This document shows positions 6,391 to 54,433 of a DNA stretch of 64,000 bases, piece after piece; position 1 is the first letter of the stretch, and every line of letters begins with the position of its first letter. Position numbers and translations under genes: made by a program. Below the pieces are notes generated by a model. It had not been told where the DNA came from and did no database searches. It saw nothing but the letters and a program-made list of their open reading frames with translations. This DNA comes from Formicincola oecophyllae (lineage in GTDB: Bacteria; Pseudomonadota; Alphaproteobacteria; Acetobacterales; Acetobacteraceae). The stretch lies in assembly GCF_006542395.2 (NCBI RefSeq), contig NZ_CP038231.1, positions 1 to 64,000 of the forward strand, written 5' to 3'.

Positions 6391-7341
6391 TCACCCAAGC
6401 CAAGGTTCTGGGCTGGGGTTGAAGGCCAGTTCAGTGCAGGCCTTACTATTGGCTGCACCGCTGAGCTGGTTTTCGCAATAGGCCATTTCAACACCACAAG
6501 CCTTCTCCCCCTCAGCTGGGGGAAGGCTGGCTGGCACGGGCGCCCCCACCCAGCGCGCGAAGTCCCGCGCCCACTCCCCATAAAGCTGGGGAGTGGCATC
6601 AGTGAGGTCGTAAACCTCATGCAGGGCACTGCCGCCCTTGGCCAGGCTGCGCATCAAGGCAGCCTGGGTGGCTGTGGCGGCATCCTCCACATCCACAAAG
6701 GACCAGACCCCGTCAGCAGCGCCGATGAGGGGCATCTGCCCCGCTTTGAAGGCCTGGGCCACAACGCCGTCTTGCGTGTACCAGGTGCCAGGGCCGTATA
6801 TGAAACCAAAGCGCAGCGCTGTGGTGTTAAGGGGGGCTGCACGCAGGCGCTGTTCCTGCTGGTGGTACATGCGCGAACTCTGCCCCACTGAACCGGGGCC
6901 ATCCACCCTGAAGCCTGAGCTTTCCGTAGCTAGCTGCCCTTTGGGGGCAGCCAGGTAGAAGCCGCTTGACTGGCGCAGGTAATGCATTGTGCCCACATGC
7001 TGGGCCGCCGCCAGAAGGTTGGCGCCACCATCCAGGCGCAGGCGGGCATCTCCCGGCAGGGCGGCGGCCAGGCCGGCTGGGCTGTGAGGAAGGCTGCTCA
7101 GGAAATCCACCACGGCTGTGGGGCGGATGGCAGCGAAGGCCTTTTGGACATCAGCGCCATCAAGCACATCGCAACGCAGGGCCTGGGCGCCCAGGGCCTT
7201 GATGCGCTCAACGCTTTCAGGCCGGCGGGCCAAGCCCCAAACAGCGCAGCCACTGGCCAGGAGCCGCTTGAGGAGTGGCCGCCCCAGCGCGCCGCTGGCG
7301 CCAGCCACAAGCACGGTGGGGGTGGAAGTGGCTGCGGTCAT
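6391..7341 (-). CDS. NAD(P)-dependent atypical SDR/epimerase, candidate ceramide-pathway reductase
   Basis: An extended SDR-type oxidoreductase of 316 residues. The Rossmann motif VAGASGALG lies at 12-20, a SSGFY stretch at 125-129 and FIYGPGTWY at ~180-188. The expected YxxxK is not clean: Tyr159 is followed by Glu163. It is the last gene of the sphingoid-base operon, 29 bp after the oxoamine synthase, with AAAGGA before its ATG. In Caulobacter an epimerase-like SDR beside spt (CerR) reduces the keto-sphingolipid intermediate, so that role is the best inference. A sugar-nucleotide epimerase is the alternative. The stop codon abuts repeat cluster R2. Confidence 0.7.
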   Translation of the reverse strand: MTAATSTPTVLVAGASGALGRPLLKRLLASGCAVWGLARRPESVERIKALGAQALRCDVLDGADVQKAFAAIRPTAVVDFLSSLPHSPAGLAAALPGDARLRLDGGANLLAAAQHVGTMHYLRQSSGFYLAAPKGQLATESSGFRVDGPGSVGQSSRMYHQQEQRLRAAPLNTTALRFGFIYGPGTWYTQDGVVAQAFKAGQMPLIGAADGVWSFVDVEDAATATQAALMRSLAKGGSALHEVYDLTDATPQLYGEWARDFARWVGAPVPASLPPAEGEKACGVEMAYCENQLSGAANSKACTELAFNPSPEPWLG

Positions 7342-7370: not shown

Positions 7371-8630
7371 TCAGGCCTTGATGGCGCCAACAGCTTTGCC
7401 AACCTGAGCGAAGGCCGCAATGGCCTTTTCAATTTGTGCTGGCGTGTGAGCTGCTGAAACAGAGCAGCGCAGCAGCGGGAAGTTGTCTGGCGTGGCGGGG
7501 GGCAGGGATAGGTTGACGTAAACCCCTGCCTCCAGCAGGCCGTTCCAGAAAGCCAGGGCCTGGGGGATGTCATCAAGCGTGACGGCCACAACAGGAGAGG
7601 GGTGTTCCCCCGTTTTGAGGCCAGCTGCGCGCAAGCCGCCATGAAGCTGCGCAGCGTTGGCACGCAGCTGGGCGCGAAGCTCGGGCTTGGCTTCAACGTC
7701 ATCAATCGTGGCCAATGTGGCCGCCACGATCTCAGGTGGGAGGGAGGCTGTGAACATGTAGGGGCGCGAGACCAGGCGCATCAAGTCGATGTCGTCATGG
7801 TCCGTCACGCAATAGCCACCCACCGTGCCCAATGATTTGGAGAAGGTTCCGACAATGAAGTCCACCTCCCCCTCACACCCGTCCAGCTCTGCAGCGCCAC
7901 GCCCGTTTTCCCCCAAGACGCCGAATGAGTGGGCTTCATCCACCATCAAGGCTGCACCGTTGGCTTTGCAGACTTCAGCGAAGCGCTTAACAGGGGCGAC
8001 ATTGCCCGTCATGGAATAGATGCCCTCAATCACCACCAGGCGCGCGCCGCTTTCGTGGGCGGAGCGCTTGAGGCGCTTTTCAAGGTCGGCTGGATCGTTG
8101 TGGCGGAACCGGATGACGCGCGCGCCTGAAAGCTTGGCGCCGTCATAGATGCTGGCGTGGCAGTCAGCGTCCAGAAACAGGATGTCATCTTTGTTCACCA
8201 GCGCTGAAATGGTGCCCAGGTTGGCCTGGTAGCCTGTGGAGAACACCATGGCATGCTTGCGGCCAAACAGCTTGGCCAAGCGCTGCTCCAGCTGCGCGTG
8301 GAGGGAGAACGTGCCGTTGGCGATGCGCGAACCCGTTGTGCCAACCCCCATGGAACGCGCCACAGCCTGGGCCTTTTCACGCGCTGGAGTGGATTGGCTC
8401 ATGCCCAGGTAGTTGTTGGTGCCGAACAACAGCGTGGGGCGGCCTTCAATCACTCCTTCAGAGGCGGAGAGGGGCTTTTCAATCACGACATTGAACGGGT
8501 CGCGCGGGGAGGCGTGAAGCATCTGGCTGCGCGTGTCGCGCAAATGGGCGTACTTGGCAAAAACACCCCCAGGCGCGCTGCCAGGCCCCTTGGCGCCAGG
8601 TTCCTGAGGGGTTGGTTTGGGCGCGCTCAT
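7371..8630 (-). CDS. spt: Serine palmitoyltransferase-like alpha-oxoamine synthase
   Basis: PLP enzyme of the family that condenses an amino acid with an acyl thioester. Next to an ACP and an acyl-AMP ligase the likely reaction is serine plus acyl thioester to 3-ketosphinganine. Visible features are the stacking His159 (DCHAS), DEAHS at 231-235 and the PLP Lys265 in GTFSKSLG, in a 419-residue type I fold. LLFGTNNYLG near residue 67 is typical of SPT and KBL proteins. Its ATG overlaps the ACP stop by 4 nt (ATGA). 2-amino-3-ketobutyrate CoA ligase or BioF are alternatives, but the context favours SPT. Confidence 0.85.
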   Translation of the reverse strand: MSAPKPTPQEPGAKGPGSAPGGVFAKYAHLRDTRSQMLHASPRDPFNVVIEKPLSASEGVIEGRPTLLFGTNNYLGMSQSTPAREKAQAVARSMGVGTTGSRIANGTFSLHAQLEQRLAKLFGRKHAMVFSTGYQANLGTISALVNKDDILFLDADCHASIYDGAKLSGARVIRFRHNDPADLEKRLKRSAHESGARLVVIEGIYSMTGNVAPVKRFAEVCKANGAALMVDEAHSFGVLGENGRGAAELDGCEGEVDFIVGTFSKSLGTVGGYCVTDHDDIDLMRLVSRPYMFTASLPPEIVAATLATIDDVEAKPELRAQLRANAAQLHGGLRAAGLKTGEHPSPVVAVTLDDIPQALAFWNGLLEAGVYVNLSLPPATPDNFPLLRCSVSAAHTPAQIEKAIAAFAQVGKAVGAIKA

Positions 8631-8902
8631 GCCTGGCCCCGCTGTTCGTCAAGGATGGACTTCAGGCAAACGGCCAAATCGTGGATGGTGTTGATGTCAG
8701 CCAGCTTGTCGAGGGGGACGGAGACGTCCAGCGCGTCCTCGATCTCCATGACGAAGTTCATCACCGCCAAGCTGTCAAAAGCCAGGTCCTGCATAATGCG
8801 GCTGTCGCCGTTGATGTTGCGCGGCACCTTGGGGTTGGCCAGGAGCCGCTCCACAATCAGGGCTGTGATGTCATCAACTGTTTGTGGATTCTCAACACTC
8901 AT
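8627..8902 (-). CDS. Dedicated acyl carrier protein of the sphingolipid operon
   Basis: A 91-residue ACP with the 4'-phosphopantetheine Ser44 in AFDSLAVM and the acidic helix after it (NFVMEIEDAL). It is distinct from the housekeeping AcpP at 43.8 kb. It overlaps the oxoamine synthase start by 4 nt, which suggests translational coupling. In Caulobacter the equivalent AcpR carries the acyl chain used by SPT. The same role is inferred here. Confidence 0.85.
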   Translation of the reverse strand: MSVENPQTVDDITALIVERLLANPKVPRNINGDSRIMQDLAFDSLAVMNFVMEIEDALDVSVPLDKLADINTIHDLAVCLKSILDEQRGQA

Positions 8903-9008: not shown

Positions 9009-10874
9009 TCAACCTGGGTTAGGGGCTGGGGCCTCGTCAAACTCGCCTGCTTGCAGCATGGCTTTTGCACGCGCACGGGTCAACTTGCCAGAGGATGTCT
9101 GGGGCAGGGAGCGTGGCGGCACCAGGATGACCTCCACCTCCACCCCATGGAGGCGGCGGAACAGCCCTGCTGTCTCCTCCCGCAGGCGTTCGCGGTTCTC
9201 AGGCTCGCTCAAGCGGCACTGGACGAGGGCAACCACCTTCTCGGCAACGCCGCCCCCCTCGCGCGGGCGGTCAACAGAGAACACGGCCACGTCACGCGCG
9301 CGCAGGCCATCGATCTCATGCTCAGCGGACCATTCAAGGTCCTGGGGCCAGATATTACGGCCATTGATAATGATAAGGTCCTTGGCGCGGCCTGTGACCA
9401 CGATCTGGCCGCGCAGGAAATAGCCCAGGTCGCCTGTGCGCAGCCAGCCATCGGGGCTCAGGCAGGCGGCGGTTTCCTCTGGCTTGCCGAAATAGCCGCT
9501 CATGATGCTGGGGCCGCGGACGAAGATCTCCCCAACCTTGCGTTCCTCCACTACGGCGCCCTGGGGGTCGCGCACTTCGATCTCATGGTCTGGCAGGGGC
9601 TGGCCACACAACACGAAGGTGCGCGCCATGGCCTCAGGGGAGGTGGGGGGGGTAGCGCGTTGCTCGCTTTCCAGCACGCGCAGGTCGACTGTGTCCGTCT
9701 CAATGCCGTGGCCAAGGGGGGCGAAGCTAATGGCCAAGGTCGTTTCAGCCATGCCGTAGCTGGCTACGAAGGCCTTGCGGTCAAAGCCGCGGCACGCGAA
9801 GGCGTCTGCGAACTGTTCCAGGATGTGGGGGCGGATCATGTCGCCGCCGATGCCGGCCACACGCCAGTTAGAGAGGTCGATGGGGTCACGCGCGCCCCTG
9901 CGGGCGCAGAGGTCGTAGCCGAAAGAGGGGCTGTAGGCGATGCTGGCCTTGTTGCGGCTCATCAGTTCCAGCCAGGTGTGGGGGCGGCGGGCGAATTCAC
10001 GCGTTGGCAGGAAGTCGATGGTGAACTGGCACACCAGGGGGGTGAGGAAAAAGCCCACCAGCCCCATGTCATGGTAAAGGGGCAGCCAGGAGACGCCACG
10101 GTCATCGCCGCGTTTGGCGTCACGCACCTGTAGGCCGTGCTGAGCGATGGCACGCGTGTTGGCCATGGCCGTTGCCTGGGTGATGCTCACCCCCATGGGG
10201 AAGCGCGTGCTGCCAGAGGAGAACTGCAGGTAGGAAAGGTCGCTTGGGCTGATGGTGGGCAGCGTGACGCTGCCTTCAGCTGGGGCGGCCATGGCGATGA
10301 GCTCTGCTGGGCGCCCACCAAATAAAAGCCCTTCCAGACCAGCCGTGATGTCGTCTGTCCAGCTACCGATTATTTCAGGCACGAACAAGGCGCGTGCGCC
10401 GCAGGCCTGCACCATGCCGTGCAATGTAGCTACGTATTGCTCCCGCCCGCCAAAAGCGATGGGCAGCGGCAAAGGCACAGCAACCAGTCCGGCATATTGG
10501 CAGCCGAAGAAAATACGCGCGAAATCCCCATCGCTTTCAGCCACGATGCCAACCCGGTCACCCTTTTGCAGGCCCAGCGCCAGGAGCTTCTGGGCGCATT
10601 CACGGCCTTGGCGGGCCAGGTCACGGTAAGTGAGAGCTTCCAGGAGGTCGCCACGGCCAGAATAAAAGTTGAAGCCCGTGTCGCCTTGGGCGGCGTAATC
10701 GAGGGCTTCAGGCAGGGTGCTGAAATCGCCCCGGCGTGTGGTAATGCCAGAGGCGCTTGGCGTGGGCGCAAGGGGTTTTGTTTGGGTTTGGGTGGCGTCG
10801 GGCAAACTCTGACTAGCTCCGTTCAGCGAGCCGGAGACGCGACACATTAAAGACGTTAAAGCATCGGCCGGCAT
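9009..10874 (-). CDS. Fatty acyl-AMP ligase / acyl-ACP synthetase
   Basis: ANL-superfamily enzyme that adenylates a fatty acid and probably loads it on the neighbouring ACP. The P-loop SSGSTRFPMGV follows YLQF, SYGMAETT lies in the middle, GWLRTGDLGYF marks the hinge region, and the catalytic Lys lies in SSGKLTR near the C-terminus. Such FAAL-like proteins usually act with a stand-alone ACP. The frame is open to a GTG at 10940. I place the start at ATG 10874, with ATG 10847 also possible, since none has a strong ribosome site. It is the first gene of the operon and lies 106 bp before the ACP gene. Confidence 0.85.
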   Translation of the reverse strand: MPADALTSLMCRVSGSLNGASQSLPDATQTQTKPLAPTPSASGITTRRGDFSTLPEALDYAAQGDTGFNFYSGRGDLLEALTYRDLARQGRECAQKLLALGLQKGDRVGIVAESDGDFARIFFGCQYAGLVAVPLPLPIAFGGREQYVATLHGMVQACGARALFVPEIIGSWTDDITAGLEGLLFGGRPAELIAMAAPAEGSVTLPTISPSDLSYLQFSSGSTRFPMGVSITQATAMANTRAIAQHGLQVRDAKRGDDRGVSWLPLYHDMGLVGFFLTPLVCQFTIDFLPTREFARRPHTWLELMSRNKASIAYSPSFGYDLCARRGARDPIDLSNWRVAGIGGDMIRPHILEQFADAFACRGFDRKAFVASYGMAETTLAISFAPLGHGIETDTVDLRVLESEQRATPPTSPEAMARTFVLCGQPLPDHEIEVRDPQGAVVEERKVGEIFVRGPSIMSGYFGKPEETAACLSPDGWLRTGDLGYFLRGQIVVTGRAKDLIIINGRNIWPQDLEWSAEHEIDGLRARDVAVFSVDRPREGGGVAEKVVALVQCRLSEPENRERLREETAGLFRRLHGVEVEVILVPPRSLPQTSSGKLTRARAKAMLQAGEFDEAPAPNPG

Positions 10875-10940
10875 GATGTTCTGCCCACGCGCGGGGCACG
10901 CCGCGCATGGCTGGGGCGCGTTTTTCTGATTCCTGAACAC

Positions 10941-29979: not shown

Positions 29980-31125
29980 TTAGTTGGCGCCTGGCGGCGT
30001 TTTCTGCCCACCATGACCCTGTGCGCCTGTGTTTTTGTGCATGAAGGGAATATGGCGCAAGCGCCACAGCAGGCGCGGCAACCCCAGGAGGGGGTGGTTG
30101 CGTTCAAAGTCGCTGGCGGGGATGACCTGCCCTGTATGGCGGTGGATCTTCCACAGGATGTAGTCAACGCCTCCCCTGAAGGTGAACAGGGCCTTCAGCA
30201 AACGGCTGCCGTTGAGGACCTTCCCAGCCCGCATGATATGGCCCCATTGCTCCAGCGCAGCCTGGCGCTGTTCTGGGGCGGGAGTGGAAAGTTTGCCTTC
30301 ATGCAGCAGGCCCAAGGCCATCCAGGCCAGGAGGAGCATGTGCCCATAGCGCCCCACCTGCCCAGCCAGCAGGCTTGCGCTGCGGTCAGCCCCCTCCACG
30401 CGCAGTTCAGCTTTGTAGGTGTGGGCGTAAAGGTTACGCCAGAAAGCGGCCCAGTCCTGCGCGCTAAACCATTGCTGGGCCTGGCTTGGCGTTGGCAGGA
30501 TGAAGGCCCACCAGGCCGCCGTCAGAACAGCCTCACATAGGAGGGAGGCCACGCTGGCCGCGGCGGTTTCGCTTGGTGCCCAGACCAGGCGGCAAGGCTG
30601 GCTGAAACGCGCCCAAAGCGTGGTGTCCAGCGATGAGGGGCGGCAGCGCGCCCTGAAGTCATCCACCGTGATGACGGCGACCTTGGCGCGCAGGGGCTGG
30701 GCTGCGGGGTTGCCGAAGGTGCGGGCCTCAAAGGCGCTGTGCGGCTCCTCCCAATAATAGACGTTAGGGGGGAGCACGCGGGCTGCTTTGCGCTCCAGCG
30801 CGCTGCCAAGGAGGCCGTCTGTGCTTTCCACCACAACATAGAAGTCAAGCACGCCTGAGGGGTCCAGGGCTGGATCCGCTGCTGCGCCGGCACTTGGCCC
30901 AGGGGCTTGTGGGCGCGCCAGCGAACCGTAAAACAGAACCCCCACAGGTGGCTTGGGGAAGACCTCCACAATGCCTTGGGCGAAGGCCTTCAGCGCTGGT
31001 GGAACAGGCTGGGTGATTTCACGGCTGATTTCCTCGTACAGGCCAGCGCCAGCTGCCACCTGCGCATCAAGCGAGGTGTTGAAAGGCTTGGTCTCAAAAG
31101 GGGGCTTTGTGCTGTGGTCAGGCAT
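29980..31125 (-). CDS. Nucleotidyltransferase-fold protein, possibly Tam41-like, in a lipid locus
   Basis: 381 residues. FYGSLARP (65-72) followed by GVLDFYVVVES (91-101) has the GS...DxD-like layout of nucleotidyltransferases, and with LPPNVYYWE (~118-126) recalls the mitochondrial phosphatidate cytidylyltransferase Tam41. The similarity is seen by eye only. Its ATG overlaps the 3' end of the lipid kinase gene by 8 bp, so the two are translationally coupled. A step after lipid phosphorylation, such as activation of a phospho-lipid with a nucleotide, is the inference. It should be compared with the Caulobacter ceramide phosphoglycerate (cpg) genes. Confidence 0.55.
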   Translation of the reverse strand: MPDHSTKPPFETKPFNTSLDAQVAAGAGLYEEISREITQPVPPALKAFAQGIVEVFPKPPVGVLFYGSLARPQAPGPSAGAAADPALDPSGVLDFYVVVESTDGLLGSALERKAARVLPPNVYYWEEPHSAFEARTFGNPAAQPLRAKVAVITVDDFRARCRPSSLDTTLWARFSQPCRLVWAPSETAAASVASLLCEAVLTAAWWAFILPTPSQAQQWFSAQDWAAFWRNLYAHTYKAELRVEGADRSASLLAGQVGRYGHMLLLAWMALGLLHEGKLSTPAPEQRQAALEQWGHIMRAGKVLNGSRLLKALFTFRGGVDYILWKIHRHTGQVIPASDFERNHPLLGLPRLLWRLRHIPFMHKNTGAQGHGGQKTPPGAN

Positions 31126-32146
31126 GAAGGAACCGGAAAACTGGGCCGCGCTCCAGCGTCACGCGCTGGTCGGGGGGGGTGGGGAACACTTCGCCATCCA
31201 TGACGAAATCACTGTTGGTATGCATCTCAAGCGCTTGGTCTTCAATGCCGCTGACATAGTCGGCATGGGTGCGCAGCCATGCAGGTGCGCGCCCGCGCAA
31301 CAGGTTGTAGAGCACAGCCCCCATGCGGGCCGGAAAAGCACTGACATTGAGGAAATGGAAGCCATGGCGCCCATCCTGGCCCTCGCGCCAAAAAGGCCAG
31401 ATGCCGTAAGAGAGCTTCTCCAGCCCTGTGGCCAGGAACAGGAAGCTGTGGCCACGGCGCATGATGTCACGTTCCCTGGCTGCCCCCACCCCGCCCCCTT
31501 GCAGGGCTGGCCTGGTCCAGCGCAGGCTGTCGCCAGCCAGCCATTCTTGGCGGGAACGCTTGAAGAACAACCGCCCAATGCTGCTGGCCACCGTGAGGAC
31601 AACAGCCAAGTCATGGGGGGCGTAGCGCAGCATAGTGGGGGAGTGGGCAATGCGGATGGCGCGCGCGTAGCCTGCGCAGCCACCGAACATGCCCAGCACG
31701 GCGTGGCGTTCAGGCGCGCCAGGCCAGGTAAGGCGTATGGGCGCGCGCAGGCGGTAAGGGCAGGGACCGCCGTCTAGCAAGCGGTTGAGGGCCGCCACCC
31801 CACGCAGGCCAAAGCCAACGTCCTGGGCAATAAGGTTGGTGTTGCCTGAAGCCAGCACGGCGATGGCTGGCAGTTGGTCATGGGGCCAAACCTGCGCCAT
31901 AGCGGTGAGGCAACCGCTAATGGTGCCATCGCCACCATCAATCATAACGGTGTTGACGCCAGCCTCCTGCAAGGTGCGCATACGCGCCACCAGGGGCTTT
32001 TGGTCACGGGCTGAAAAGCAGAAACCGCCCAGGCGCTCTTGGGCGGCTTCCAGGAACTGGCCAGCCCCCTTCAAGTTCAGGCGGCTGTGGGGATTGTGGA
32101 TGAGGGCTGCGCGCACCGTGTCTCCATTCAAGTAAGGTTCCAGCAT
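31118..32146 (-). CDS. DAGK-type lipid kinase (diacylglycerol/ceramide kinase family)
   Basis: Phosphorylates a lipid hydroxyl. ALIHNPHSRLN (14-24), the nucleotide-binding MIDGGDGTISG (68-78), GSGNTNLIAQ-like ASGNTNLIAQD and a C-terminal DGEVFPTPP are diagnostic of the DAGK/sphingosine kinase catalytic domain. Caulobacter ceramide kinase belongs to the same superfamily, and the sphingoid-base operon in this window makes ceramide kinase a fair guess over diacylglycerol kinase. ATG 32146 is preferred to the TTG at 32167. It is divergent from the phosphoesterase gene across about 106 bp. Confidence 0.8.
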   Translation of the reverse strand: MLEPYLNGDTVRAALIHNPHSRLNLKGAGQFLEAAQERLGGFCFSARDQKPLVARMRTLQEAGVNTVMIDGGDGTISGCLTAMAQVWPHDQLPAIAVLASGNTNLIAQDVGFGLRGVAALNRLLDGGPCPYRLRAPIRLTWPGAPERHAVLGMFGGCAGYARAIRIAHSPTMLRYAPHDLAVVLTVASSIGRLFFKRSRQEWLAGDSLRWTRPALQGGGVGAARERDIMRRGHSFLFLATGLEKLSYGIWPFWREGQDGRHGFHFLNVSAFPARMGAVLYNLLRGRAPAWLRTHADYVSGIEDQALEMHTNSDFVMDGEVFPTPPDQRVTLERGPVFRFLHA

Positions 32147-32252
32147 GGCACGGTTTAATAAGAACAACAGGCAACGGTCCTATCTATGTTCACCGCTAGG
32201 CGCCCTCCCATAACATGGCTATGGTGCGCGAACCAGAAGGAACCCTGGAAGA

Positions 32253-33401
32253 ATGAGCGCAATAGCCCCAAACACCCTCACAGCTGGCGCTGCAGCATGG
32301 CCCCTGCAGGATGATGAAAAAGGGCCGGCGCCTATGCCAGCGCCGGCCCTGCAGGCTGGCTGTGCTGTGCGCTTGGCCCACCTTTCAGACCCGCACTTGC
32401 CACCACCACCCATCCCCCTCTGGCGCTACGCCAATAAGCGCTTGTTGAGCCGCATTTTGTGGGAAAGCAAGCGCAAATGGCGTCACAGGCCAGAACAATG
32501 TGCCCGTGTGCTGGCGGATTTGAAATCATGCCATGACGATCCCCACTCCCCCCCCCTTGACGCCATCCTGTGCTGTGGTGACCTGACCAATTTCGGCACT
32601 AAGGAGGAATACGCCGCTGCTGCGGACTGGCTTGCTGGCTTGCCAGCGCCAGCCTTGGCCGTGGCTGGCAACCATGACGCCATGGTGGGGCGCAGCTGGC
32701 GCCAGCACCTGGCAGGTTGGGCGCCCTGGGGCGCTGACGGTGTGGGGCTGGCTGCGCCTGTGGTGCGCTTGGTGGGGCCTGTGGCGGTGGTTGCCGTCAA
32801 TTCAGCCAGGCCAAGGCCGCCCTTCATTTCCAACGGTTTAGTTGACGCGCCCCAGCAGCGCAGGCTTGCCTCTATTCTGGACCGTTTGGGGGAACTGGGC
32901 TATTTTCGCCTGGTGATGCTGCACCACCCCCCCCAGCCCCTGCCAGCCGACAAGCGCCTGCAGGGGGCGTTGGGGTTCGCGCGCCTGCTGCACCAGCATG
33001 GCGCTGAAATGGTGCTATATGGCCACACGCACCGCTCGACCCTTCAACGCATCCCCGGCACCACTATCCCATGCCTTGGAGTGGCGTCCACATCGCTGCA
33101 GGCGCCGCGCGGGCGCGCTGGCGATGAGCGGGGCGCCGCCTGGAACGATATCACCATCATCCCCTTGCCAGCCAGCCAGCCCAGCGCGCCCCAAGGACCT
33201 GGTGCAGGGGGCGGGCGGCAATGGCAGGTGGCTGTGCACCTGCGCCGCCCACAGGGGGACCTTTTCCCCCATGAGGGTAGCATTCGGGGGGAAGCTGTCT
33301 TCACCACAGGCGCCCAAGGCACCTCGCATGGGGGTAGCGCAGGTGGGGGGGTAAAAATAAACACTTCCCAGCTGGGGTCCTTTCAAGGCAAAGCTGCCTG
33401 A
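32253..33401 (+). CDS. Calcineurin-like metallophosphoesterase
   Basis: 382 residues with the full two-metal set: HLSDPHL (43-49), CGDLTN (108-113), GNHDAM (139-144), a later HHPP and YGHTHRS. The substrate may be a phospholipid or nucleotide-lipid head group, inferred from position only. Its TGA overlaps the lptF ATG by one base (TGATG), so it heads a coupled run with lptF, lptG and the fatty acid hydroxylase. The C-terminal 80 residues are Gly/Pro-rich with no clear fold. Confidence 0.8.
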   Translation: MSAIAPNTLTAGAAAWPLQDDEKGPAPMPAPALQAGCAVRLAHLSDPHLPPPPIPLWRYANKRLLSRILWESKRKWRHRPEQCARVLADLKSCHDDPHSPPLDAILCCGDLTNFGTKEEYAAAADWLAGLPAPALAVAGNHDAMVGRSWRQHLAGWAPWGADGVGLAAPVVRLVGPVAVVAVNSARPRPPFISNGLVDAPQQRRLASILDRLGELGYFRLVMLHHPPQPLPADKRLQGALGFARLLHQHGAEMVLYGHTHRSTLQRIPGTTIPCLGVASTSLQAPRGRAGDERGAAWNDITIIPLPASQPSAPQGPGAGGGRQWQVAVHLRRPQGDLFPHEGSIRGEAVFTTGAQGTSHGGSAGGGVKINTSQLGSFQGKAA

Positions 33402-34609
33402 TGTTCCGCCGCCTGCCCACCCTGGACCGTTACCTGCTGCACCAAATGCTGCCACCGTTCTTCGTGGCGCTTGGCACCATGATGGTCGCCTTGCTGCTTG
33501 AACGCCTGCTGGTGCTGTTCAACCACCTGGCCAGTTCGGGCAGTTCGCTAGGAACGCTGCTGACGTTGCTTGCCGACCTCATGCCCCATTATATGGGCCT
33601 GGCCGTGCCAGCTGCGCTGTGCATCGGGGTGTTCATCACCATCCACCGCATGAGTGAGCATAACGAACTTGACGCACTGCGCGCAGGCCATGTCTCCCTT
33701 CTGCGCGTGACACTGCCTTTTGCGGCCTTTGGCGTGGTGCTGGGGCTGCTCAGCGTTATGCTTTACGGCTACCTGCAGCCACTGGCGCGCTATAACTACC
33801 GCCAGGGGTTCTACCTAGCGCGCCACACAGGCTGGGCGCCACACCTGCAGTCTGGTATGATGGCCGTCACCTCACGCACATCTGTGCTGACGGCGGACGA
33901 AGTGGGGCCGGGTGGGTCTGACCTCAAGCGCGTGTTCATCCGCGAAATCAAGAACGGTGAGCTTCACATCACCACAGCCCCCAGGGGCCTGCTGACCATC
34001 TCAGAGCAGAAACGCGCCACAGAGCTTGACCTCTGGGATGGCTACACCATGATGGCCAAGCACCCAGACGTGCCTGGCACGCCCGTCACCATGACGCATT
34101 TCGACCACATCACGCGCATTATTGAGCGCGGCCCCACAAGTTACAGCTACCGCCACCGTGGTCGTGACGAGCGTGAGCTGACGTTGCTGGAGCTTGTCAG
34201 CGCCTTGAATGCCGCCAAGGACATCAAAGGCGCTGACGGCGACAACATCACCCTGACCACACTGCGCGCCGAGTTCAACTTCCGCCTGGCGCGCGCTTTC
34301 ATCATCCCCTTTCTGCCCTTGCTGACGGTGGCGCTGGCTGTGGGGCAGAAGCGCCGACGTGCCCTTGGCCAGCAGGTGGCGCTAGCGGTAGTGCTTGTTG
34401 GGTTCAATGAACTTCAGCTGTTCGGCAATGGCTTAGCCCAGGACGGCAATCTGCCTGTATGGTTGGCGCTGTGGGTGCCAGATGGCCTGTTCGCCGCTGG
34501 CTGCGTTGGCGTTCTGCTGTGGAAGGCTGAAACCTTCTCAAGGGGCGGGCGGCGCAAAGCCACCCCCGGGCCCGCCAAAGCCCTGCCAGCTGGGGGCGCG
34601 CAACCATGA
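33401..34609 (+). CDS. lptF: LPS export permease LptF
   Basis: Inner-membrane subunit of the LptB2FG transporter that extracts LPS (or a similar anionic lipid) for export. The 402 residues start LDRYLLHQMLPPFFVALGTMM and have the usual six helices around a periplasmic jellyroll (~130-270). ALRAGHVSLLRVTLPFAAFG corresponds to the coupling helix. It overlaps the phosphoesterase stop by 1 nt and the lptG start by 4 nt. Confidence 0.88.
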   Translation: MFRRLPTLDRYLLHQMLPPFFVALGTMMVALLLERLLVLFNHLASSGSSLGTLLTLLADLMPHYMGLAVPAALCIGVFITIHRMSEHNELDALRAGHVSLLRVTLPFAAFGVVLGLLSVMLYGYLQPLARYNYRQGFYLARHTGWAPHLQSGMMAVTSRTSVLTADEVGPGGSDLKRVFIREIKNGELHITTAPRGLLTISEQKRATELDLWDGYTMMAKHPDVPGTPVTMTHFDHITRIIERGPTSYSYRHRGRDERELTLLELVSALNAAKDIKGADGDNITLTTLRAEFNFRLARAFIIPFLPLLTVALAVGQKRRRALGQQVALAVVLVGFNELQLFGNGLAQDGNLPVWLALWVPDGLFAAGCVGVLLWKAETFSRGGRRKATPGPAKALPAGGAQP

Positions 34610-35820
34610 GTGTGCGTTCATTCCTGGCCCGTTTCGCCGTTTTCGCTCCCAGCGAGCTCATGCGTGATGGCCTCGTGCCTTCACCCAGGGAATTGCTGCG
34701 CCCCAAGCCAACCTTGGCACGGGTGTTCCTCAAGCCCCTTTTGGCGCGCATCCTGATGTGCTCTGCCGTGCTGTGCGGCTTGATGGAGGTTCTGGGGCTG
34801 CTTGACGCCGTCCCCATGATCCTGCGCCGTCACCTGGGCATTCTGGGGCTGTTCCACTTCATGGGGCTGCACTTACCGGCCCTCTTCGTGGAGACGCTGC
34901 CTGTGGCTGTGCTTGTGGGCAGCCTGTTCACCCTTATGCACATGGCCCTCTCAAGCGAGCTGGCGGCGCTACGCGCCTCCGGCCTTTCCACATGGGGCAT
35001 GTTCATGGAGATGCTGCCAGCCCCCCTCTTGCTGGGGGTGGTGGGAATCGGGGTTCAGTTCTGGGTGGTGCCGCCAGCTGAACAGGCCTTGAGCGCCTGG
35101 TGGAATGTCAGCGCTACGCGCGTTCATGACATGGCAAGCCAGCCCCCTGTTTGGTACCGGGAGCGTGGGCACATTGTGCACATCAGCCATGTTGGTGGCG
35201 GGGGTACCCATTTGGAGGGAGTGACGTTCTACCAGCGCCAGCTGGGGACGGGCATTTTGCAGGGGCTGCTTCATTTCCCAGCGCTGGACTATCAAAAAGG
35301 CCACTGGGTTGTGGGCCAGTCCGCACCAGGCGCAACGGGGCTTGCGGCCGCGCCCGCTTCGGAGACCGTCATCTCCCCCACCCGCGAGGACGGCCAGATT
35401 AACACTTTTTCAGGTGCACCCCCCCTCCACGCCATGCCAGAGCAGCTTAACACCATGGCCATGGCGCAACCGCTCTACACCCCAGGTGACCTCATCAGCG
35501 CTATGAGGGGGCGCCAGCCCTTCAGCCTGCCGCCGTCAAACTACAAGATGGCCCTGCTGCAGGCGCTAGTCCTGCCTGTGGAGCTGGTCGTTATGGTTCT
35601 CATCGCGCTGCCAGTCACTTACATTCCCCCCAGGGCTGGCACGCGCAACCCCTTGCCTGTTTATGTGCTTGGCGCGGGGCTAGGGATTGTTATTCTGCAG
35701 GGAATGATTTCTGCTTTGGGCAATGCGGGCTCGTTGCCTGCCTATGTGGCCGTTAGCGCAGGTTTGGTTGTGGCAGCCCTGTTCGGTATCACATGGATAC
35801 TGCGTATGGAGGATAAGTGA
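34606..35820 (+). CDS. lptG: LPS export permease LptG
   Basis: Partner of LptF, 404 residues, same YjgP/YjgQ family. The N-terminal transmembrane helices end with SSELAALRASGLSTWGMFME (~105-124, coupling helix), then comes a beta-rich periplasmic domain (~150-290) and three C-terminal helices (AGLGIVILQGMISALGNAGS). It starts ATG inside the lptF stop (ATGA) and its stop overlaps the GTG of the hydroxylase gene, so the four genes are probably made in fixed proportion. Confidence 0.88.
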   Translation: MSVRSFLARFAVFAPSELMRDGLVPSPRELLRPKPTLARVFLKPLLARILMCSAVLCGLMEVLGLLDAVPMILRRHLGILGLFHFMGLHLPALFVETLPVAVLVGSLFTLMHMALSSELAALRASGLSTWGMFMEMLPAPLLLGVVGIGVQFWVVPPAEQALSAWWNVSATRVHDMASQPPVWYRERGHIVHISHVGGGGTHLEGVTFYQRQLGTGILQGLLHFPALDYQKGHWVVGQSAPGATGLAAAPASETVISPTREDGQINTFSGAPPLHAMPEQLNTMAMAQPLYTPGDLISAMRGRQPFSLPPSNYKMALLQALVLPVELVVMVLIALPVTYIPPRAGTRNPLPVYVLGAGLGIVILQGMISALGNAGSLPAYVAVSAGLVVAALFGITWILRMEDK

Positions 35821-36650
35821 GCGTGCTGAAGTTTCTCAAGAACACCCCCTTGATGCGGAAAGGCCGCAGCCACGACTTGGGCAAAATGAACCTGCCCCAG
35901 CTGTGGAAGGCCTACCTGACCTATCCCACCATCCTGCTTTACTTCTCCATCATCATCGCCTCTGCAGCGGCGACGTTCTGGTTCTGGACAAGCTTCTGGG
36001 CGGCCTTCCTGCCCATGGTGGCCGTCATTCTGGTGTTCCCGGTGGTGTGGTACGTCATCCACCGCTGGATCATGCATGGGCGCTGGTTTTACCGTAATCC
36101 GCTCACGGCCAAGATGTGGAAGCGCATCCACTGGGACCACCACCAGGACCCGCACAAGCTGGAGGTCTTGTTTGGCTCCCCCCTCCACACGGTGCCGACA
36201 GCGTCTTCCATCGCGCTGCCGCTAGGCTACCTCATGGGGGGATGGAGCGGCGCCTTCTCCGCGCTCGGCACCGCTGTTTCTATGGCGTGCATCTATGAGT
36301 TCTTCCATTGCTTGCAGCACCTGAACTACAAGCCGAAATGGGATTGGGTGGTTTACATCGTCCAGCTGCACATCCTCCACCATTTCCATGACGAGGACGG
36401 CAATTTCGGCATCACCAACTACTTGCTTGACCGCATGTTGGGCACGTTCTACCGCACAGCCAAGGATAGGCCGCGCAGCAAGTTCGTGTTCAACCTGGGC
36501 TATAACATGGAGGAAGCACAGCGCTACCCCTGGGTGATGCGCCACACAGGCGCGCCGCCGCGCCACAGGCCGGACCCGGCGCGCGTGCCCCACACGCCGC
36601 AGTTCCGCAACCCCCAAAGCCGCAAAGCGGCCAAGCTTGGCGTGGGCTGA
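35817..36650 (+). CDS. Fatty acid hydroxylase (sterol desaturase superfamily)
   Basis: Di-iron membrane oxygenase, 277 residues. The His clusters are complete: HRWIMH (82-87), HWDHHQDPH (105-113), HCLQH (164-168) and HILHHFHDED (185-194), between four hydrophobic segments. In a locus with lipid kinase and beside a sphingolipid operon, 2-hydroxylation of the ceramide acyl chain or of the long-chain base is the likely job; carotenoid hydroxylation is the alternative. It starts at GTG 35817, coupled to lptG (GTGA). Confidence 0.85.
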   Translation: MSVLKFLKNTPLMRKGRSHDLGKMNLPQLWKAYLTYPTILLYFSIIIASAAATFWFWTSFWAAFLPMVAVILVFPVVWYVIHRWIMHGRWFYRNPLTAKMWKRIHWDHHQDPHKLEVLFGSPLHTVPTASSIALPLGYLMGGWSGAFSALGTAVSMACIYEFFHCLQHLNYKPKWDWVVYIVQLHILHHFHDEDGNFGITNYLLDRMLGTFYRTAKDRPRSKFVFNLGYNMEEAQRYPWVMRHTGAPPRHRPDPARVPHTPQFRNPQSRKAAKLGVG

Positions 36651-36663
36651 AGGCACGCAACTG

Positions 36664-37479
36664 ATGACCAGCTTCATGCCACATCACGGCACCACGCCCC
36701 AAGGACCTGCGCCCTTCAGCACGGTGATTCTGGCTGGATCGCGCCATGGCGCGGCGGAGCCCTTAGCGCGCTTTGGCCAAACTACACACAAGGCCCTTCT
36801 GCCTGTGGGGGGGGTGCCTATGCTGGAACGCGTTGTCAGCGCACTTGAAGCAGTGCCAGGGGCTGGCAAGCCCTTAGTTTCCATTGAGGACCCCTCCGCA
36901 CTGGCCTTCCTGGAAGGGCGCGTCACCCCCGTTCAGGCCTGCCCAACCCCAGCTGAGAGCGCAGCGGTGGCTGTGCGCCTGGCAGGCACGCCCTGCCTGC
37001 TGACCACGGCTGACCATGCCCTGCTGCAGCCTGAATGGGTGGCGGGGTTCATTGCCAAAAGCCGCGCCACCGGCGCTGACATCACAGCAGCTGTGGCGCT
37101 CAGGGAAACTGTCACGCGGGACGTTCCTACCACCAAACGCACGTTCATCCGCCTTTCGGATGCGGCGTTCTCTGGTTGCAACCTGTTTTGGCTAGCCAAC
37201 CAAAACGCCTTGAACGTGATTGATTTATGGGAGGTGCTGCAGAAAGACCGCAAGCACCCCTTGCGCATGGCCCAGCGCCTGGGTTGGGGGACGCTTGCGC
37301 GCGCCCTCACCCGCACATTGAGTGTGGAGGCGCTTGAAAACCGCATAGAGGCCCTGACAGGCGCCCATGCGCGCCTCATCATGATGGATGACGGGCGTGC
37401 CGCCGTTGACGTGGACAAGGTGACGGATTGGCACTTGGCTGAAAAGCTGCTGGCCACCCCTGAAAGCCGCACCCCCTGA
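36664..37479 (+). CDS. MobA-like NTP transferase domain protein
   Basis: A 271-residue cytosolic nucleotidyltransferase. VILAGSRHGA (21-30) and Lys43 of THKALLPVGG match the signature loop of GT-A-type NTP transferases, with a shortened LAGG motif (AGSRHG). The rest reads like sugar- or alcohol-phosphate nucleotidyltransferases. It follows the hydroxylase by 13 bp. An inositol- or sugar-phosphate activating step for a lipid head group would fit the neighbours, but this is inference. ATG 36664 is used. Confidence 0.65.
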   Translation: MTSFMPHHGTTPQGPAPFSTVILAGSRHGAAEPLARFGQTTHKALLPVGGVPMLERVVSALEAVPGAGKPLVSIEDPSALAFLEGRVTPVQACPTPAESAAVAVRLAGTPCLLTTADHALLQPEWVAGFIAKSRATGADITAAVALRETVTRDVPTTKRTFIRLSDAAFSGCNLFWLANQNALNVIDLWEVLQKDRKHPLRMAQRLGWGTLARALTRTLSVEALENRIEALTGAHARLIMMDDGRAAVDVDKVTDWHLAEKLLATPESRTP

Positions 37480-37509
37480 ACGTTGAGGCGCTGCATGCCC
37501 CCAGCGCCC

Positions 37510-38463
37510 TCAGCGTTGGAAGCGCCGCTTGAGCTTGCCCCATTTCTTCAGAAAAGCGGTGCGGGGGCTGCGGATGTCGCAGCGGACGTCAACCAGCGTT
37601 TTGGCCGCTCCAGAAGAATCCGTGACGGCGGCGATGGTGTGAAAACCGTCCCCCCATTCATCAGCTAGTGAAGGGGGGATGGGCACGTCATGGCGCCCCA
37701 GCACATGGGGCCGCCCCTCCAGCAGGCCGCCAAGGGTCAGGATGGCCATGCCGCCGCCATAACTCTGGGTGCAGTTTTGCACAGGCAAATGCACCACTGG
37801 GCTGCCTGAAACGCTTTGCCCCACCCATGCCGTGCCACCAGGGCGGGCCCCTGAACGGTCCACCAGCAAGGTGCCTTCATGGTGCCAAGGCCCCATCAGC
37901 CCCTCAGCCCAGGAAAGGCGCAGCTCGCTCTGGCGCGCTGGTTTGGGGGTGGGGGGAGTCCAGAACATCCACCAGCGCCCGCCAAGCTCAAGCAAGGTTG
38001 GGTCGATGGCAGGGTGGTCAAAACGGAAAGCTGGCTCCAGCACCCAATCATGGGGGAAGCTGCGGGCGCGGTAGAGCGAAAGCCTGCCTGATTTCCAAGC
38101 TTCAGGCAGCATGTAGATGCCCCCCTGCCATCGGTACAGAGCGGGGTAGGAGAGATGCCATGGCTTGTCGAGCACGCGCACGCGCTCAAGCAGCTTCCAG
38201 CTGGCAGTGTCATAGGTCAGGGCATCTATCACGCCACGGTCAGTGCGGTAATCGTAGTTTTCCGCCATGACGTGGATTTTACCGCCTTCCTCAAGGCCGA
38301 AAGGGTCCGCCAGGAAGTGGTCTGGCCCCGTATCAGGAAGGAGGGTGATGGCGTCCCCAGCGAATCCCTCAGGGCGCAGTGCGTGGCTGATGGGGGCATG
38401 GATGAGCGCGCACCGCCAATGGTGGACGGGCTTGGCAAATGGCAATGAGGAGATGGAAACCAT
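37510..38463 (-). CDS. Beta-propeller protein resembling the N-terminal domain of ceramide glycosyltransferases (GIPC-type)
   Basis: 317 residues. FLADPFGLEEGGKIHVMAEN and repeats such as YPALYRWQGGIYMLPEAWKS and DPTLLELGGRWWMFWT look like blades of a five-bladed GH43-type propeller. In plants this domain is named after glucosamine inositolphosphorylceramide transferase, and in bacteria it turns up with polysaccharide and lipid glycosylation genes. No glycosidase activity is assured. It converges with the NTP-transferase (31-bp gap) and is divergent from the next gene. Assignment is by pattern only. Confidence 0.6.
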   Translation of the reverse strand: MVSISSLPFAKPVHHWRCALIHAPISHALRPEGFAGDAITLLPDTGPDHFLADPFGLEEGGKIHVMAENYDYRTDRGVIDALTYDTASWKLLERVRVLDKPWHLSYPALYRWQGGIYMLPEAWKSGRLSLYRARSFPHDWVLEPAFRFDHPAIDPTLLELGGRWWMFWTPPTPKPARQSELRLSWAEGLMGPWHHEGTLLVDRSGARPGGTAWVGQSVSGSPVVHLPVQNCTQSYGGGMAILTLGGLLEGRPHVLGRHDVPIPPSLADEWGDGFHTIAAVTDSSGAAKTLVDVRCDIRSPRTAFLKKWGKLKRRFQR

Positions 38464-38608
38464 GCTGGAAAACCCTGGTGGCGTTGGGGCCTGGCCTGGC
38501 GCTGCCCCAGCCAGGGCGCTCCGTTGTGGGGTGGGGCTTGCTTGAATGGCCCCCTAAAGACATTTGTGGCATTCATTACCATGATCGTGCCTTTGAAGGA
38601 AAACCGCC

Positions 38609-39448
38609 ATGGCTGATGTCATCCCCGAAAACCACCTGCGCCTGGCACCACCAGGGGTGGAGGGGCGTTTCACAACCGCCCTGGCCCTGATGGGGCAGGC
38701 GGCAGAGCTGGCCATGGTCATGCGCCCAGCCCCAGGTGCCCCCCAAGCTGCCATGAAGGGGCAGCAGGATTACGTCACCGCTGCTGACAAGGCTGTTGAG
38801 AAACTGCTGCGGGAAGGGTTGCTAGCAGCCTTCCCTGGTGACGCCTTTTTGGGGGAGGAGACAGGCGGCGCCAGGCGCCCTGAAGGCTGGCGCTGGATCG
38901 CAGACCCCATTGACGGCACCTCCAACTATGCCCGTGGGCGCGACCGCTGGTGCGTTTCGCTTGGCTTGTTTTGGAACGACACCCCCATGATGGGCATCAT
39001 CAGCGCGCCCACCACCTTGAAGACTTACGCCGCCATCAAAGGCTGCGGGGCATGGCGTAATGGCCAACCCATGAAGGCCGCCACCACGAAAAGCACCAGC
39101 CACGCCATGGTGGAGGTTGGCTGGTCACCTTGGGTGGAGAAGGGCTGGTACGAGGCCCGCATGGTTAATGTCCTTTCCACAGGTGCCATGCCGCGTACGC
39201 TTGGTTCAGGCGCGTTGGCGCTGGCTGACGTGGCCTGCGGGCGGCAGGATGGCTATTTGGAAAAGGTGATCCAGCTGTGGGACGTGGCCGCTGCACTGGT
39301 CCTGCTGGAGGAGGCAGGCGCCAGCGTTACGCCTTTCCTCCAGCAAGGGGGACTTGAGGGAGGGGCACAGATTTTCGCTGCCAGTCCGGCCTTGGCAGCC
39401 CCCCTCGCAGCGGCCCTTGGCCTGGTTGGGCAGACCACAACCCCTTAA
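38609..39448 (+). CDS. Inositol monophosphatase family phosphatase
   Basis: A 279-residue Mg-dependent phosphatase. Asp60 (TAAD), GEETG (82-86), DPIDGTSNYARG (99-110) and a late QLWDVAA motif (~222-228) give the complete metal site. Substrates in this family include inositol phosphate, histidinol phosphate and PAP. Its position beside a possible inositol/ceramide locus is suggestive, but HisN remains possible. AAGGAAA precedes the ATG. Confidence 0.8.
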   Translation: MADVIPENHLRLAPPGVEGRFTTALALMGQAAELAMVMRPAPGAPQAAMKGQQDYVTAADKAVEKLLREGLLAAFPGDAFLGEETGGARRPEGWRWIADPIDGTSNYARGRDRWCVSLGLFWNDTPMMGIISAPTTLKTYAAIKGCGAWRNGQPMKAATTKSTSHAMVEVGWSPWVEKGWYEARMVNVLSTGAMPRTLGSGALALADVACGRQDGYLEKVIQLWDVAAALVLLEEAGASVTPFLQQGGLEGGAQIFAASPALAAPLAAALGLVGQTTTP

Positions 39449-50780: not shown

Positions 50781-51713
50781 TCAGGAAGGAGCGCGGGTGC
50801 CGTTCAAAACGCTATTAGCGGCCTGTTCTGCCGTGGCGCTGGCCGCCGCCTGGGCGCGGAGCTGGCTTGCCAGGCCCAGCTGGGCAGGCTGGCTGCGCTG
50901 GGCCGCAGTGGCTTCTACCAAAAGCGCCCTGCGCATGGAGCGGAAATCCCCCCCCTGCCTGTAAGCCGCCACAGCCTGTCCCGCCGCCTGGAGGGCCTGG
51001 GCGGGCTGGCCGTTCATCAAGGCCATATCTGCCTGGAGTTCCGCTAAAAGGCCAGGTGCAGCCAAAGCGCCATCACGCGACAGGCTTTCCAGGCTGGCAG
51101 CCAGCAAGGCGCGGTCGCCAAGGCCATTGGCGGCCAGCCCTTCAAAAGCCACAGCCATTTGCTGGGTGGCGCGCTCCCCCTCCTGCAAAGTGGTACTGGT
51201 CGTGGCGGCTTGGGCCGCAGTGGCCTCCCCCGCTGCAGCGCGCGCCTGCTCCAGCGCGCTTTGCCAGTTTTGCTGGCGCAGCGCCACAGCCGCCCCGATG
51301 AGCCGCAAACGCCCCATGAAACGCCAATTGCGCAATTTCAGAGCCGTGGTAGCCATGGCCAGTGTTTGGCGCACAGCAGGGAGGTCATCACTGGCCAGCT
51401 GGGCCGTGGCCAGATTAACCGCCGCCGCGTAAAGCAGGGGGGCATTGTCAGCCACGATGGCGCGGTTGTAGGCCTCCTGGTACTTCAGGACAGCTTGGGC
51501 AGCATGGCCGATGTCAAAAACAGTTGTGCCGGCACTCATGTCAGCGTTGTAGACGCTGTCCACTGGCTGCTGGGGGCTGCCGCCGCAACCAGGCAGCGCT
51601 GCTACCACACTCAACGCCAGGGCCGCGCCCAACCCTTTGAAAACCCCAGGCCAGCTGCGCCTGCCGGCATGATGGGTGGGTTGGCGCTGTGGCATCACGG
51701 CAAGCCCCTTCAT
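50781..51713 (-). CDS. Lipoprotein at the end of the Mla-type operon
   Basis: 310 residues. A basic start and LGAALALSVVAALPGC form a lipoprotein signal, with lipobox LPGC. The mature part is helical and Ala/Gln-rich, reminiscent of TPR-like repeats. Its start overlaps the mlaD-like stop (ATGA), so it belongs to the operon and probably serves as its outer-membrane or periplasmic partner, in place of MlaC or an ABC-type auxiliary lipoprotein. No family is recognised with confidence. Confidence 0.65.
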   Translation of the reverse strand: MKGLAVMPQRQPTHHAGRRSWPGVFKGLGAALALSVVAALPGCGGSPQQPVDSVYNADMSAGTTVFDIGHAAQAVLKYQEAYNRAIVADNAPLLYAAAVNLATAQLASDDLPAVRQTLAMATTALKLRNWRFMGRLRLIGAAVALRQQNWQSALEQARAAAGEATAAQAATTSTTLQEGERATQQMAVAFEGLAANGLGDRALLAASLESLSRDGALAAPGLLAELQADMALMNGQPAQALQAAGQAVAAYRQGGDFRSMRRALLVEATAAQRSQPAQLGLASQLRAQAAASATAEQAANSVLNGTRAPS

Positions 51714-52642: not shown

Positions 52643-52648
52643 GGCGCT

Positions 52649-53434: not shown

Positions 53435-53484
53435 GGCACTGCCTTCCCAACCAAGGGGTGCCCAGCAAGATGGTGGTTGCCCAT

Positions 53485-54423: not shown

Positions 54424-54433
54424 GGTCACAGCG

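Follow-up and report, generated by a model that had tools for sequence, protein, structure and literature searches.

A probable Caulobacter-type phosphosphingolipid locus in Formicincola oecophyllae and comparative evidence for its LptF-LptG pair as a sphingolipid counterpart of the lipopolysaccharide permease

The window analysed here, positions 1-64,000 of the forward strand of the Formicincola oecophyllae sequence NZ_CP038231.1 (NCBI RefSeq GCF_006542395.2), is a 64-kb stretch that opens at dnaA in an Acetobacteraceae genome of 1.96 Mb, the nearest sampled relatives of which are Bombella, Saccharibacter and Parasaccharibacter; our subject is a gene cluster at 29980-39448. All nine open reading frames that an earlier, sequence-only reading had placed there are present, each at its coordinates and with the domain assigned to it (Pfam; Table 1). 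Minus-strand genes for a nucleotidyltransferase-fold protein (NTfold) and a lipid kinase (Kin) diverge from plus-strand genes for a metallophosphoesterase (MPE), two LptF/LptG family permeases (LptF2 and LptG2), a fatty acid hydroxylase (FAH) and a second type of nucleotidyltransferase (NTPt), after which come a beta-propeller gene (PROP) and an Inositol_P family gene. Four genes described as tightly coupled are indeed so, with overlaps of 1 nt (MPE/LptF2), 4 nt (LptF2/LptG2) and 4 nt (LptG2/FAH). Kin and NTfold overlap by 8 nt, and FAH and NTPt would overlap by 14 nt only with TTG 36637 as the NTPt start, homologues favouring ATG 36664; the 85-bp region between the diverging arms likely holds promoters for both. 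We read this locus as the part of a bacterial phosphosphingolipid pathway that supplies head group and export, the latter through a dedicated LptF2-LptG2 route, at a probability of roughly 0.8.

The clustering of the core genes is not due to chance. Within 20 kb around NTPt, the order aasR-SPT-NTfold-Kin-MPE-LptF2-LptG2-FAH-NTPt (SPT, serine palmitoyltransferase) was found in most of 23 other Acetobacteraceae genera, and in a second sample of 80 named species seven genes occur together in 79-80: NTPt, LptF2, LptG2 and FAH in 80/80, and NTfold, Kin and MPE in 79/80, with Kin adjoining NTfold in 79. The genes therefore stay together among relatives rather than scattering. The adjacency of SPT was scored on the 74 loci that exceed 19 kb, and in 68 of these NTfold has SPT immediately beside it. 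With SPT, acpR and aasR adjoining the cluster in nearly all relatives, the proposal that the locus belongs to sphingolipid synthesis stands. The SPT operon noted some 20 kb away is likewise real, although its distance of about 21 kb is not the arrangement of relatives, in which SPT is adjacent. Reading from dnaA, a close relative (G069) has NaH-MFS-alr-aasR-SPT-NTfold, whereas in the window (7371-29900) the SPT-aasR-alr-MFS-NaH block is reversed with respect to Bombella-like relatives and is separated from the cluster by arsB to h29111; the 21-kb distance of SPT thus results from an inversion of this block in the window lineage, accompanied by insertion or rearrangement. CerS is encoded far away, at C1:1829179.

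Across a class-wide sample of 240 alphaproteobacterial genomes drawn from about 150 families, NTfold was found in 28. Strong NTPt matches were obtained in 27 genomes, all with NTfold (27/28 as against 0/212 genomes without it), and strong FAH matches in 24 (23/28 as against 1/212); the corresponding co-occurrence values (P 7.6e-35 for NTPt and 3.2e-26 for FAH) ignore phylogeny, the genomes coming from about 150 families. In many of these clusters across the class, CerS lies between FAH and NTPt, and Kin has a CpgA-type CDP-alcohol phosphotransferase gene beside it.

The F. oecophyllae genome contains two LptF-LptG pairs, that of the cluster and the lipopolysaccharide (LPS) pair at 351-353 kb, with only some 25-33% identity where the two match locally. 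Both cluster proteins possess a full-length LptF_LptG domain (174.6 and 162.7 bits for LptF2 and LptG2, the Pfam cut-off being 27.9), fall below the cut-offs of the LPS-dedicated NCBIfam equivalogs (161.5 of 230 and 172.9 of 240 bits) and lie outside the canonical tree groups. A tree of 106 LptF/LptG proteins unites the LptF sequences of the clusters, from genomes with and without LpxC alike, with a support of 98, and sets them against a canonical LptF group (100); canonical LptG likewise comes out as a single group (100). Genomes without LpxC were counted as lacking LPS, an equation valid only for complete genomes; on this basis, and leaving out one incomplete genome (G169) without any LptF/G, the 27 class-wide cluster genomes divide cleanly. 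All 13 with LpxC hold 4-5 LptF/G genes, and all 14 without LpxC hold exactly two, both located inside the cluster or no more than about 5 kb away, as against four LptF/G genes in 1 of 189 LpxC-positive genomes that lack the cluster. The split recurs within families: in each of f34, f51, f91 and f126 a cluster genome has four LptF/G genes and a non-cluster sister two, and in f28 and f93 a cluster genome without LpxC and a non-cluster sister with LpxC have two each. Among Acetobacteraceae, at least four LptF/G genes are present in 24/24 NTPt-positive genomes, and six further genomes with four all encode CerS.

From these relationships we read LptF2-LptG2 as a putative dedicated sphingolipid extractor. 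The sequence-only reading, which had delivered the lipid to the LPS exporter, was right in so far as export fits the evidence; the permease concerned is instead a separate, anciently diverged pair, and the flipping step it had included finds no counterpart, since no MsbA-like flippase is encoded at the locus. LptF2-LptG2 shares its permease family with the LPS exporter LptB2FGC and differs from it in being sphingolipid-linked and retained without LpxC; the cluster itself contains no LptB or LptC gene. The route of bacterial sphingolipids to the outer membrane has been stated to be not known, and a transport role for LptC2/F2/G2 has been proposed in Caulobacter (PMC11324152); the comparison of genomes made here lends strong support to the published idea of an exporter dedicated to sphingolipids, and the new element is this comparative evidence for an LptF-LptG pair as the sphingolipid counterpart of the LPS permease. 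We also consider it fairly probable that this second, anciently separate alphaproteobacterial LptF-LptG takes sphingolipids with any head group and replaces the LPS pair after LPS loss, the Lpt bridge then acting as a general conveyor with interchangeable extractors.

In the pathway that we propose, SPT, AcpR, AasR, CerR and the distant CerS would produce dihydroceramide, the N-acyl chain of which FAH may hydroxylate in the manner of yeast SCS7. Kin would convert ceramide to ceramide-1-phosphate, NTfold would activate this, most likely to CDP-ceramide, and NTPt and MPE would activate and trim a small head group, giving what is probably an anionic lipid of the ceramide phosphoglycerate type. 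LptF2-LptG2, with shared LptB and the LptC-A-D bridge, would then extract the lipid from the inner membrane for delivery to the outer membrane, parallel to the LPS-dedicated LptF1-LptG1.

Several points weigh against this scheme. For F. oecophyllae itself, the pathway and the transport are genome-based predictions. CpgA gave no match in 99 of 100 sampled Acetobacteraceae, F. oecophyllae included (only G063 has it); as this CDP-alcohol phosphotransferase would be expected to use the activated ceramide, the transfer step is left without a named enzyme. The F. oecophyllae genome yielded a single LptC match, although a divergent second one could be missed, and Caulobacter is reported to have two. 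Two fast-evolving LptG2-type sequences (L131 and L236) fall weakly beside canonical LptG. One genome (G029) retains the enzymes without MPE, LptF2 or LptG2 at the locus; we rejected it as a natural loss of the exporter, as four LptF/G genes are still present in the genome. The single LpxC-positive exception above (G121) has four LptF/G genes without the cluster, and another genome (G111), which lacks LpxC, NTfold and NTPt, has a cluster-type permease pair directly downstream of SPT. The permease therefore cannot be specific to one head group, and its position in G111 argues that the pair goes with sphingolipids in general.

The closest described system is the Caulobacter crescentus CC_1168-CC_1152 locus (PMC11324152, PMC10331486, PMC12275187), with which, by published domain descriptions and gene order, the cluster shares a CpgC-like protein, a CpgB-like kinase, a phosphoesterase, LptF2, LptG2 and a CofC-like nucleotidyltransferase, in that order and near SPT/AcpR/AasR. 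SPT, AcpR, AasR, CerR, CerS, a CpgB-type gene beside a CpgC-type gene and a second LptF and LptG were all found in F. oecophyllae; CpgA and LptC2 were not. The suggestion that the gene set differs from that of Caulobacter thus has little behind it: the order is that of CC_1161-CC_1153, except that CpgA and a HIT gene are lost, CerS has moved elsewhere and a hydroxylase has been gained. The class-wide order MPE-HIT-LptF-LptG-(FAH)-CerS-NTPt matches CC_1158 to CC_1153 as published (PMC11324152), from which we infer that CC_1157 is the HIT gene. Unlike Caulobacter, in which hydroxylation is attributed to the DesA-type CC_0202 elsewhere in the genome, F. oecophyllae has an SCS7-like hydroxylase gene in the operon, one LptC found, and relatives with optional propeller and family 4 glycosyltransferase (GT4) neighbours. 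The cluster is accordingly a variant of the Caulobacter-type phosphosphingolipid locus, without CpgA and with a predicted SCS7-like ceramide hydroxylase.

FAH (277 residues, comprising the hydroxylase domain only) matched no sequences in the PDB other than yeast SCS7 (E 7e-9), and shares the histidine clusters of SCS7/FA2H (4zr0, 4zr1), with H82, H87, H105, H108, H109, H164, H168, H185, H188, H189 and H191 invariant. The hydroxylation step of the earlier proposal fits these features, and we propose FAH as a candidate ceramide N-acyl hydroxylase. It adjoins CerS in other alphaproteobacterial orders, and in G067 and G099 stays with CerS at loci with neither NTfold nor a strong NTPt match. Those two Acetobacteraceae genomes, together with G085 and G097 of the same family, have SPT and/or AasR beside CerS (L237, L239, L241 and L242 for G099, G067, G085 and G097, respectively), no NTfold or strong NTPt, and four LptF/G genes; a different sphingolipid head-group route is likely in all four.

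Kin carries the invariant GDG of the GGDG motif, is distinct from the other diacylglycerol kinase of the genome (C1:946835) and corresponds in position to CC_1160, a proven ceramide kinase (PMC10331486). NTfold has no Pfam match and no significant match in a PDB sequence search; fold searching alone gave matches. Its AlphaFold (AF2) model (predicted local distance difference test (pLDDT) score 80, predicted template modelling (pTM) score 0.82) combines a nucleotidyltransferase domain with a second helical domain, as does Tam41, the CDP-diacylglycerol synthase of mitochondria and Firmicutes (7ecd, 6ig2/6ig4), and the Tam41 comparison suggested previously proved apt: the model aligns with Tam41-CTP (7ecd) with a VIA-align Z-score of 17.1 over 233 residues (residues 39-316; 12% identity), the next non-Tam41 fold scoring 6.5. 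The YG(S) motif and D94 are invariant. Tam41 moves CMP from CTP onto a lipid phosphate; given this fold and the adjacent DAGK_cat kinase, the simplest route to read here leads from ceramide through ceramide-1-phosphate to CDP-ceramide, and the model makes NTfold most likely a candidate CDP-ceramide synthase acting on ceramide-1-phosphate. An NDP-ceramide product was suggested for CC_1161 from an InterPro hint (PMC11324152), and the predicted structure supports that suggestion.

NTPt, best matched in the PDB by 2dpw, is a GT-A-type nucleotidyltransferase near TTHA0179 and the Kdo and IspD cytidylyltransferases. It was rejected as CpgD, as Roseomonas mucosa and Diaphorobacter carry NTPt and a separate CpgD-like gene; such a gene does not stand beside the cluster in F. 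oecophyllae or the inspected relatives, no genome-wide CpgD search having been made. The position of MPE is conserved across the inspected clusters. That the product is a phosphorylated ceramide of some kind we regard as quite likely; as to the head group, a mono-head-group ceramide phosphoglycerate (CPG) is our tentative best guess, by analogy with Zymomonas, where the loss of CC_1159 has been interpreted as leaving CPG as the sole product (PMC11324152).

An unlikely but serious alternative for this step is that NTfold moves phosphoglycerate from an NDP-glycerate made by NTPt, forming CPG at once, with no need of a CDP-alcohol phosphotransferase. The missing CpgA, alongside the almost perfect co-occurrence of NTPt and NTfold, would then be explained, and deletion of CpgC abolishes CPG in Caulobacter (PMC11324152). 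The Tam41 fold, with its transfer of CMP from CTP to a lipid phosphate, speaks instead for CDP-ceramide formation. For that fold we know of no phosphoglycerate-transfer chemistry.

A glycosylated product, with GT4 and PROP adding sugar and the kinase and nucleotidyltransferases acting on sugar or other lipids, we consider improbable. GT4 and PROP genes do stand beside 39 and 36, respectively, of the 80 named-species clusters, and PROP falls into the Pfam family that contains the N-domain of a glucosamine transferase for glycosyl inositol phosphorylceramide (GIPC), but many Acetobacter clusters have neither gene beside them, whereas Kin, NTfold and NTPt are a constant of the cluster, and GT4 is not at the window locus. 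The likeness of PROP to the GIPC enzyme N-domain is thus sound as far as the family goes (GINT1_N, 1.3e-24), whilst the 317-residue protein is a propeller only, without the C-terminal glycosyltransferase domain of GINT1; its AF2 model (pLDDT 87) matches GH43, GH117 and sialidase propellers in a general way, with no close relative. Of the choice between phosphorylation and glycosylation left by the sequence-only reading, the kinase and Tam41-like activation fit the former, and the latter is optional or unproven. The Inositol_P gene, counted there as a member of the system, is better regarded as a bystander: present in 47/80 loci, it is accompanied by Ysc84 in every case and in most by MltG and FabF too, many Acetobacter clusters lack it as a neighbour, and its best NCBIfam match, HisN, falls below cut-off.

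It is very unlikely that LptF2-LptG2 is a second exporter of LPS or lipid A (variant or truncated), placed by chance among enzymes that still modify ceramide. The family is defined by LPS export (in its Pfam and NCBIfam names) and F. oecophyllae has LpxC; yet the 14 cluster genomes without LpxC keep exactly the cluster pair and no other, and G111, also without LpxC, has the pair beside SPT. That the enzymes act on diacylglycerol lipids (as diacylglycerol kinase, CDP-diacylglycerol synthase and general fatty acid hydroxylase), with a regulatory or incidental SPT link, is scarcely credible: the DAGK_cat, Tam41 and FA_hydroxylase families do include glycerolipid enzymes, but presence of the genes tracks sphingolipid genes over the 240 genomes, the gene order includes SPT, AcpR, AasR and CerS, and FAH matches a ceramide hydroxylase.

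Table 1. Cluster features and other sphingolipid genes of the window
Feature	Coordinates	Strand	Assignment
cerR candidate	6391..7341	-	NAD-dependent epimerase/dehydratase family; Pfam Epimerase
spt	7371..8630	-	Serine palmitoyltransferase; Pfam Aminotran_1_2
acpR	8627..8902	-	Specialised acyl carrier protein; 4-nt overlap with spt
aasR	9009..10940	-	Acyl-ACP synthetase; Pfam AMP-binding
NTfold	29980..31125	-	Tam41-fold nucleotidyltransferase; positional counterpart of CpgC (CC_1161); proposed CTP:ceramide-1-phosphate cytidylyltransferase
Kin	31118..32167	-	Lipid kinase, Pfam DAGK_cat 4.9e-10; positional counterpart of ceramide kinase CpgB (CC_1160)
Divergent intergenic region, 85 bp	32168..32252	.	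From flanking open reading frame coordinates
MPE	32253..33401	+	Calcineurin-like metallophosphoesterase, Pfam Metallophos 9.9e-14; positional counterpart of CC_1158
LptF2	33401..34609	+	LptF paralogue linked to sphingolipid genes; Pfam LptF_LptG 3.9e-51; tree
LptG2	34606..35820	+	LptG paralogue linked to sphingolipid genes; Pfam LptF_LptG 1.6e-47; tree
FAH	35817..36650	+	Membrane di-iron fatty acid hydroxylase, Pfam FA_hydroxylase 8.4e-19; proposed ceramide N-acyl hydroxylase
NTPt	36637..37479	+	MobA/IspD-like nucleotidyltransferase, Pfam NTP_transf_3 1.8e-13; positional counterpart of CC_1153; probable start ATG 36664
PROP	37510..38463	-	GINT1_N-type beta-propeller, Pfam GINT1_N 1.3e-24; optional neighbour
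Inositol_P family, HisN-like	38609..39448	+	Pfam Inositol_P 3.2e-52; flanking gene outside the system

The LpxC split, with both pairs present or the cluster pair alone, makes the position-based export proposal specific and testable, and in the culturable hosts Gluconobacter, Acetobacter and Komagataeibacter the LPS pair offers an internal control; the locus also supplies candidates for a ceramide hydroxylase and a CDP-ceramide synthase. Ceramide has been reported from Acetobacter (PMC8268314, PMC11722302), and the SPT, AcpR, AasR, epi and aca genes of Gluconobacter oxydans are listed in PMC9386255. No description of the cluster was found in the latter, PMC11324152 makes no mention of Acetobacter, and on the polar sphingolipids of acetic acid bacteria only reviews were found. 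The cluster is present in Acetobacter malorum (L288), a species already in use as a source of ceramide. The ceramide of this species presumably has a 2-hydroxy acyl chain. Acetic acid bacteria, A. malorum among them, carry genes for what is predicted to be a polar sphingolipid, one that work on free ceramide may have overlooked.

Alphaproteobacteria at large, Roseomonas plasmids and one conjugative beta-proteobacterial plasmid carry a fuller version of the cluster, with the gene order of the published Caulobacter locus; searching with FAH returned Acetobacteraceae only. In R. mucosa (L244:3764-25403) and R. gilardii (L332:1989-12019) it lies on plasmids of about 0.36-0.42 Mb. The R. mucosa plasmid cluster (NZ_CP147881.1, 358 kb) has all core genes in common with the window, including the SCS7-like hydroxylase, and additionally CpgA, HIT, CerS in the operon and a CpgD-like cytidylyltransferase gene nearby; SPT, acyl carrier protein, flippase and cytidylyltransferase genes accompany it. 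Plasmid pDCB2 of Diaphorobacter sp. JS3051 (NZ_CP065408.1, L243:431-16750), a conjugative IncP plasmid with mercury resistance genes, bears a full head-group and LptF/LptG cluster in which an annotated ABC transporter gene adjoins the kinase and a DesA-type desaturase replaces FAH, and is predicted to represent mobile sphingolipid export genes in a beta-proteobacterium.

Among LptF/LptG genes more generally, three Acetobacteraceae genomes (G037, G042 and G078) hold eight or six, beyond the two pairs explained here, and a complete 5.4-Mb alphaproteobacterial genome (G164) gave no match to LpxC, LptF or LptG. The branches leading to the LPS-type LptF and LptG of F. oecophyllae (L056:4925-7251, C1:351-353 kb) are very long (1.48 and 1.42), which is not so in relatives, and the LpxC match of this genome is comparatively weak (1.5e-60 as against about 1e-100). 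Elsewhere in the window (50781-54429) lies a phospholipid transport operon of the MlaD/MlaE type, adjoining a gene for a guanylate cyclase-domain protein.

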